From the NCBI RefSeq assembly GCF_042242105.1, contig NC_092014.1, positions 14,832,374 to 14,896,373 of the forward strand: 64,000 nt of DNA, given 5' to 3'. Made by a program: the position numbers and the translations under genes. Origin of the DNA: Pempheris klunzingeri (taxonomy: Eukaryota; Chordata; Actinopteri; Acropomatiformes; Pempheridae). The notes under the pieces are model-generated. The model worked only from the letters and a program-made list of their open reading frames with translations. It did not search any database and was not told the DNA's origin. This document shows, one piece after another, positions 25,703 to 28,700 of this stretch (position 1 is its first letter; the number at the start of each line of letters is the position of its first letter).

Positions 25703-28700
25703 TCAGAGAAGTCCACTCTGAAGCTTCTCTGGAGTTGACTCATTTTTCTTTTTAAAAAGATTTTTGAGCTTTAAGGATTTCTTGCTCTTTTCTTTGTGCT
25801 TGCGACTCTCAGTCTCACGGGGTGATGCAGCAGATGGGATGGAAACCTTCGGTGGCTCCACCTCTGCTTGCAGCCTGCTGTGGGGCAGGTTGGGTGTTGA
25901 GGCAGAGAGGCTGGTTGGGGTCGTAGCCATGGCGGTGCAGGACTTCTCAAGGATTCCATCATACACAAGCTGGCTCAGCGGGCCAACAGTGAAGAGGTCT
26001 GATGATGACTTCCATGGCATGTGGGAGGTTACCATAAGGTCTGGCTGGCCAATACGACCTGGATATGAACTTAATTCAGATGCCCCCAACTCTTCCCCCA
26101 GTATTGATTGTTCAGGTATTTCCGCTGGAACGTCAACTCTGTCCCAAGAGATTTTTCCTGTGGGAGTGTCTATTGAACTGTCAATGTAATCTCTGGGCAT
26201 TCTTGGTATTCTCCTTCTGAGAGAACCAGCAGACATATCAAGTTCATCTCTCAGTATCCTCCTGCTTGTTGGTTCTAAGATAAACTCGTGCGTCTCTGTA
26301 GAGGATGAGGTATCCATAAGTGTGTCGAACCTCTCTCTGGGTAGCATCTTTATGGACGCAGTATCTCCACAATACTCCAGCTCATCTCTGTATATATTTC
26401 TTGTTCTGGTGGTCTCTGTCAATTTGTCCATTGCTAATGCCCTCGCAGAGGAATCAAGCTGGTATTCTCCTTTATTCCACATAAGCTTTCTAGAACCTGT
26501 GTCTAGGGACATTCCCATTGAATCTCTCGCAAGCTTCTTTCTGGATACCGAGTCAAATGGACGCTCAACATCATCTCGTATTATCTTTCTTGAGGCGCTG
26601 TCCATTGAAGCTCCCATCATATCTCTTGATATCTTCCTTGGTGCCACCTCTGTTGGTGCTTCTAATTCATTCCAAAGAATCTTTCTCATGTCCCGAGGTA
26701 AATCACTTATCAAATCCCCTATTGTCTCTTTCTCTGCTCTCCTGACTGAAAATTCAAATTCTGCATCCAACTCATTGGAAAACCCCTTTCTGATTGATGC
26801 ATTAATGGGAACTTCACTCCTGTCTCTGGATATCTTCCTTGATGTAGCCTCTATCAAAGACTCCTCTTTGGGCATCTTCAAAGAAGGGGTTTCCAAAGAA
26901 GTATCCAACACTTTATCTTTTGCCAACTTCCTGTAGGATGCATCTACACAAGCTTCAAGCTCCTCTATAGAAATTTTGCGAACTGGAGATTCAATCGGAG
27001 CAGCTTCTACTTCTTTACTCAAAGGCTTTGCAATAGAGCTGTCTAAAAGCAACTCAGTCTCATCTTGATAGAGCCTTTGAGAGGAAGTGTCAACAGTGGA
27101 ACTTGTGAACATTTTGCCGAGAGGAGGTGAAGTCATGTATTCTGCATCTGGAAACATCTCTTGGGAGTCTCTATTAGCGAAAGAAAGGAAAGGAATAAAA
27201 AGGGAAGGAAGGGACAAGGATGGAAAGAAGGAAGGAATGATCAATTCCTGTATCAACATAAATGGTGCTGAAACACAGAAGTTTGGTATCAGCAGTGTGT
27301 AAAAACAAATTGGCCTCTAAAAGTTGTGGGCAGGAAGACGTACTGTTTCTTCAGAGTTTTCAGGAAGAGCCCCTGCTCCTCATCAAGGCAAGGATATGGG
27401 GCTCGGATGGGAATGAGAAGGTCCGGGTCCGAGGAGATCATGGAGGCTGGTGTCTGAGTGATGACGCCTGGGCGACGAGACCGACATATGGTGGATCCCT
27501 GAGTTCGAGGAGAGCGCTTCAGTGGTGGAACTGGAATTGGAGAAAGGCCAAAGATGTACCAATCAGCAAAGGTGACCAACCCACACATAACAGACTGTGG
27601 TGTAGTGGTAACAATACATATATGCACCCAGTTTATGACCATAAAGGCTTTGTGAAACATGTGGTTCTAGTAGCTTGGTGCCATAGAGACTACTCACAGG
27701 GCTTGTTGGTGCAAACAACTGTAATAGTAACCACTGTCATGCTAGTCCTATTCAGTCACAGTAAGTTTTCAAGGTTTCTTTCTATTTGCACTCTGTACTC
27801 TGTAAAGCATTGTTAGCTTAAGTCTTCACAGGATAATAAGTTCAAGCATCATTGACTCTTGGTACTTAAGTGTCTGCCAACTGTGTCTCCTTTGTGGAAC
27901 AGTTAATACTGTGAAAGAGGAGGTTAAATACAAATAATAAATACAACTCAGCTAATAAGCCACTATTGCTTCCTCCATTTTGTAATGTCCAGCTCTCTGG
28001 CTCCGTCAAGGTGGCTTGTTGGTCACACTAATTTCATTTTACAGTTTAACAAAGTGTAACTAAATTTGTGTGGATTCACTTCTGCACTGAGAGCAAATCC
28101 ACTGATTGCAGCATTTCTGTTTCTGTAATTTGGCCTCAGTAATACTGGAGCTGGTCATGCCATGGTCCCAGCAGTCACCAGATCTGAGCTCGATTGAACA
28201 ATTTGTGGACACTAAAGAAGAAAAAAAACTAATCATTTCTGTTTCTTACCTGGAATCTGTGGTAAGATTGGAGAAGCAGACTCTTCTAACAGGTCCTCTA
28301 TAGATCCATGGACGGAGCTGTGGCATGAACAAGGTGGTTGGGGCACTCGGGGCAAACCAAGGGCAATTGCGTCTGAGTAGAGCTGGGCAGTGAGTGCTGT
28401 TAGGCCAGGATTCCTAATGATGGGGAAGCCACAGAGGCGCTCAATCTGCTGCCAGCGATGAAGGCGCTCACGTAGGCAGGAAGTTACTTCAGACAAGGCA
28501 TTCCTTTGGGAGACATACAAGGGCCTTTGTGATATCCAGTATGTTACACATACTGTGACAGACACAAGCAAATCCTGCACAGGAAATGTTGTCACTCACT
28601 TTGCCTCCAGGATCTTTTGGTCAACTTGGTCAAGAGAGGAGCTGTGGGCGACATGGAGAGTCCCGAGCACAGAACTCCTCTTCTTCTTAATCTTCTCAGC

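Follow-up and report, generated by a model that had tools for sequence, protein, structure and literature searches.

A 16-residue repeat array in the cytoplasmic tail of one of two STIM2 copies in a fish genome

The last exon of a stim2 gene in a 64,000-nucleotide stretch of the Pempheris klunzingeri genome (the window) encodes about 343 residues of imperfect 16-residue repeats with the core R-K-[IL]-x-x-D-x-x-[ED]. The array is confined to one of the genome's two STIM2 copies, a point missed in an earlier note made from the letters of the window. The reading of the sequences that we favour, and to which we give an even chance of being correct, is that an old tandem multiplication of a single STIM2 tail motif took place in a stim2a-type copy, with the units acting as multivalent docking motifs on a longer tail. 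Little is understood of the part of the STIM2 tail that links the Orai-activating region to the polybasic end, and one genome with a single motif in one STIM2 copy and many in another offers a natural test of what this little-studied motif binds and does. The gene pair could show which of the two, the length of the tail or the number of motifs, determines how STIM behaves at ER–plasma membrane junctions, and it clearly illustrates how a duplicate can diverge through multiplication of a short motif.

The stim2 gene and the array in its last exon

Splicing of 12 coding exons on the minus strand (25703 to 35125), with boundaries set by reading, gives a protein of exactly 1040 residues, the length that the earlier note had stated. 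All 11 introns have GT-AG ends, and the joined exons stay in frame. The SOAR/CAD Orai-activating region is present (Pfam PF16533 SOAR, E 2.7e-28, 28596 to 29060), and exons 8 and 9, which encode part of it, span 28600 to 29042 on the minus strand, with the intron between them included. Among the luminal exons, exon 2 matches the EF-SAM domain of human STIM2 (2l5y, E 1.7e-9) better than that of STIM1 (2k60, E 1.5e-5), as does exon 4 (E 2e-13 and 1.1e-10, respectively), and the luminal domain is therefore of the STIM2 type. In the EF-hand exon (32034 to 32164, minus strand), a 12-residue stretch takes the place of the 12 residues found there in human STIM2 2l5y.

Exon 12 (25703 to 27170, minus strand) encodes residues 553 to 1040 and the stop codon within an open frame of 537 codons. 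The array takes up residues 578 to 920 (26066 to 27094, minus strand), which bears out the repeat array that had been reported at 26075 to 27091, and its period of 16 residues was likewise recovered: the BLOSUM self-similarity at lag 16 had a z of 7.0, which none of 5000 residue shuffles reached. The charge pattern of the array has the same 16-residue period (z 5.6). A profile built from ten seed units picked by eye found 15 non-overlapping stretches scoring at least 2, with a range of 4.2 to 36.2 when the seeds were included in their own profile; each seed left out in turn still scored 4.9 to 23.6 (n = 10), and among 655 positions outside the array the top score with the same unit profile was 1.6. 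The earlier count of about 21 copies stands as the number of 16-residue slots in a register set by eye, but just 15 units are recognisable, since about six of the 21 slots are in register without recognisable sequence and unit length varies. Conservation across 12 units is highest in columns R3, K4, I/L5, R/W7, D/N/E8, E/D11 and D/E15, and two clear adjoining units, identified in the profile scan and in the comparison of unit codons, lie at residues 728 to 759 (26549 to 26644, minus strand).

Tandem Repeats Finder, run on the DNA, made no entry over the array, as expected for units so diverged. Self-similarity also stood out at lags 63 and 67 (z 4.8 and 4.0). A higher-order block of four units was considered and rejected, because the similarity of units four apart was reached by 1305 of 5000 reorderings.

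Downstream of the array (25706 to 26065, minus strand), alignment with the second STIM2 gene of the genome (stim2b, on contig C23) and with the human tail showed that GILEKSC and the polybasic end are both present, as had been claimed. The stim2b counterpart of the polybasic end is NGEKIKRSSSKIKSLFKKKK. Elsewhere in the window, exons of an RBPJ-type gene lie upstream of stim2 (39057 to 41960, minus strand; TIG_SUH E 1.2e-13, with a partial BTD below the cut-off), a TFIIE beta-like open frame at 60693 to 60941 (minus strand) scored 26.9 bits with PF02186, just under the cut-off of 28.1, and a minisatellite at 15870 to 16061 has units of 10, 20 and 30 bases that resemble GTATTCTATG, the 10-mer occurring 17 times.

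A single-copy counterpart in the second STIM2 gene

The STIM genes were surveyed in the window's own genome (646 Mb, 439 contigs), where matches to exon 8 at the window, C23, C4 and C14 indicate at least four. The genes at C4 and C14 we take, from reading them, to be STIM1-like. The gene at C23 is a second STIM2, with an exon 10 that reads GGVDDLDED. A set of two STIM1-like and two STIM2-like genes, together with the size of the genome, points to a teleost. Zebrafish stim2 guide and primer sequences, taken from PMC7291033, helped to tell the copies apart: the stim2b guide matched 19 of 20 bases at C23 exon 3 and 16 of 20 in the window. Primer matches were weaker (stim2b forward, 16/20 at C23 exon 10; stim2a, 15/20 and 16/20 in the EF-hand exon of the window), and one of the primers matched an unrelated STIM locus just as well, at 16/20. 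The window gene is assigned as the putative stim2a-type copy by elimination only.

One unit was found in the last exon of stim2b, PYRKISREELLLFSQS (YRKISREEL), placed between GRKQ and YNGILEKS. Its score of 10.4 (next best 0.5) is modest taken alone, since 9 of 1000 shuffles scored as high. Between this unit and YNGILEKS, stim2b (L006:4132-4842) has a low-complexity stretch of its own, rich in Ser, Pro and Thr. We take the human STIM2 tail to contain one unit as well, SPRKISRDEVSLEDSS at residues 621 to 636, between GRKQ and YNGILEKS-type flanks (score 18.7, next 2.5; 0 of 2000 shuffles as high). The human tail sequence used is in line with the landmarks that PMC13143212 and PMC5732248 give. 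Three tail exons of the genes at C4 and C14 scored 3.4 at best, a level that 245 of 1000 shuffles matched.

Like the array, the stim2b unit and human STIM2.2 621 to 636 are encoded by the final coding exon, precede both Y[ND]GILEKS and the polybasic end, and have the core RKIS[RX][DE]E. They differ in being one copy each, against the 15 recognisable units of the window, and in the GRKQ flank that they have in common; the window protein keeps the downstream GILEKS flank but lacks GRKQ. Since one unit is present at C23 and, as we read it, in human STIM2, the simplest account is that a motif ancestrally present once was multiplied in tandem in the stim2a-type copy to give the array. The single copy is likely to be the ancestral state and the multiplication to have occurred in the window's copy.

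A 112-residue piece of the array matched only itself in its own genome (E up to 0.001). Outside that genome, no relative of exon 12 or exon 8 was found in genome_contigs or viral_contigs. Exon 12 and a stretch of exon 11 had no match among Pfam families with an E cut-off of 1, nor did exon 12 among PDB chains with an E cut-off of 10. No paper in the searched literature contained RKISRD-type strings. No described STIM2 repeat array was found in the literature within reach, which included few subscription papers, so absence from print is unproven; where passages of PMC11506743, PMC9113749, PMC7503814 and PMC7291033 mention repeats, they refer to SAM domains, to the typing of cell lines or to CRISPR.

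Age, constraint and possible roles of the array

For codon pairs 16 apart over the whole array, pN was 0.636 compared with a shuffle mean of 0.734 (0 of 500 codon shuffles as low), and pS was 0.744, no lower than in shuffled codons (395 of 500 shuffles gave this value or a smaller one). Comparison of all 21 slots gave a pS of 0.73 and a pN of 0.59, compared with 0.73 in shuffles. Both comparisons are free of score-based unit choice, with the slot register set by eye. In 11 clear units, the core had a pN of 0.38 and a pS of 0.82, a pN that is biased down because the ten seeds, the 11 codon-compared units and the 12 motif-counted units were all picked by amino-acid similarity. At a lag of 48 bases, agreement was 0.36 and 0.39 at codon positions 1 and 2, and 0.27, near background, at position 3. 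Saturation of synonymous sites between units, alongside a conserved amino-acid pattern, makes the expansion look old and protein-constrained. The simplest reading of these patterns is an old array, in which synonymous sites have been randomised and selection has held the protein pattern.

The array frame is open over 343 codons, and the other two sense frames contain 23 and 26 stops. Skipping of the exon or non-coding drift seems unlikely from this open frame. The plus strand opposite the array has an open frame of 248 codons (26190 to 26936), which probably results from the codon pattern of the sense strand.

GC3 is 0.62 in residues 1 to 440, 0.39 in the array and 0.55 after it, and the codon usage of the array resembles that of the remaining gene no more closely than randomly drawn synonymous codons do. 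The low GC3 and unshared codon usage speak against strong constraint. They would suit a linker in a redundant duplicate that grew almost neutrally by slippage, with nothing asked of it but solubility and an intact frame. The restriction of the array to one of two STIM2 copies and its unrecognisable slots of varying length also favour this explanation, which we regard as a serious possibility, though on the improbable side. It sits poorly with an amino-acid pattern kept despite saturated synonymous sites, with the 16-residue charge period and with the long open frame.

Multivalent docking is the reading that we prefer, because the core is kept in many copies and a pure spacer would have no need of it. 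Each unit would serve as a short linear motif to which the putative partner of the single ancestral copy docks, and many copies would confer avidity. The array would also add to the length of tail that separates the Orai-activating region from the membrane-binding end, so that Stim2a might be held more stably, or reach further, where the ER (SR) meets the plasma membrane. The kept core could instead serve solubility or charge pattern. Points against docking are the normal SOCE of a human truncation after residue 624 (see below), the roughly six unrecognisable slots, the varying unit length, the low GC3 and unshared codon usage, and an ambiguous predicted structure. Exon 12 predicted alone had a mean pLDDT of 42, with 33 of 488 residues at pLDDT 70 or above and six of seven predicted helices within the array, and a two-unit prediction, made with a nine-row alignment of non-overlapping two-unit stretches, had a pLDDT of 61 and no DSSP assignment. 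By mean hydropathy and charge, the array lies on the order/disorder boundary. The earlier suggestion of a spacer or docking platform is plausible and fits the protein-level constraint, but structure prediction gives it no clear backing.

A phosphorylation platform had also been proposed from S-x-R-K and R-D motifs, and the counts divide over it. S/T-x-R/K is mildly enriched in the array (17 compared with 10.1 expected; 18 of 1000 shuffles as many), as is RD (8 compared with 3.0; 10 of 1000), both in part as a by-product of the repeat itself. In contrast, RxxS/T is not enriched (5 compared with 6.2; as many in 762 of 1000 shuffles), S/T-x-x-D/E is depleted (7 compared with 12.4; as many in 984 of 1000), and a serine follows R-K-I in 4 of 12 units. 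That the units are repeated phosphorylation sites tuning membrane binding or Orai gating therefore seems unlikely to us, even though the human segment 588 to 623, with eight putative phosphosites, affects SOCE (PMC13143212). Poorer still are the prospects of a pure spacer, in which length alone would matter and the polybasic end would reach across wider junctions: there are about 585 residues from the Orai-activating region to the polybasic end here and about 278 in human (ends set by us), or 23 and 15 nm by a rough chain estimate, but such a spacer does not call for an R-K-I-x-x-D core kept at the protein level.

Microtubule-tip binding, which the earlier note had listed among the functions of the tail, is weakened here. 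Human STIM2 has EB motifs at 686 (SGIP) and 718 (SSIP), according to PMC13143212, and residues 441 to 1040 of the window protein contain no EB-binding [ST]xIP, a feature known from human that does not define the family. The nearest strings are SDLP at 707, inside the array, and VSIP at 994, where by eye the human protein has SSIP; the EB-type string of stim2b is SMLP only. Since the human EB sites have no S/TxIP counterpart here, tip tracking by the EB route may be lost or weak.

Relation to the human STIM2 tail and to STIM1L

In PMC13143212, truncation of human STIM2 after residue 587 raised SOCE, truncation after 624 left it at the wild-type level and internal deletion of 588 to 623 lowered it. 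This 2026 paper presents 588 to 623 as a regulatory segment that is unexplained. The segment directly precedes, and overlaps the start of, the motif that we placed at 621 to 636. As the 624 truncation cuts inside this motif and removes most of it together with the tail end, one motif appears dispensable for SOCE in the human assay as reported there. If it acts anywhere, the motif may act in localisation or partner binding. STIM2.3 and the 588 to 623 segment concern the same tail region as the array, and deletion there alters SOCE (PMC13143212); STIM2.3, however, arises in Old World primates by splicing that truncates the protein, a change opposite in kind to the array of the window.

STIM1L also has a lengthened STIM C-terminal tail and is pre-localised at the plasma membrane in mammalian muscle (PMC8468011). 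In contrast to the window STIM2, STIM1L is a muscle splice form of STIM1, in which an alternative exon adds 106 C-terminal residues with a putative actin-binding domain, and it is not known to be described as a tandem array. In zebrafish, PMC6471419 reports no STIM1L-like sequence, an enrichment of the stim2a transcript in skeletal muscle and a predominance of both stim2 forms in muscle. By analogy, and as a long shot, Stim2a might after the teleost genome duplication have become a long-tailed multivalent junction scaffold through multiplication of docking motifs, standing in fish muscle in the place that STIM1L holds in mammals.
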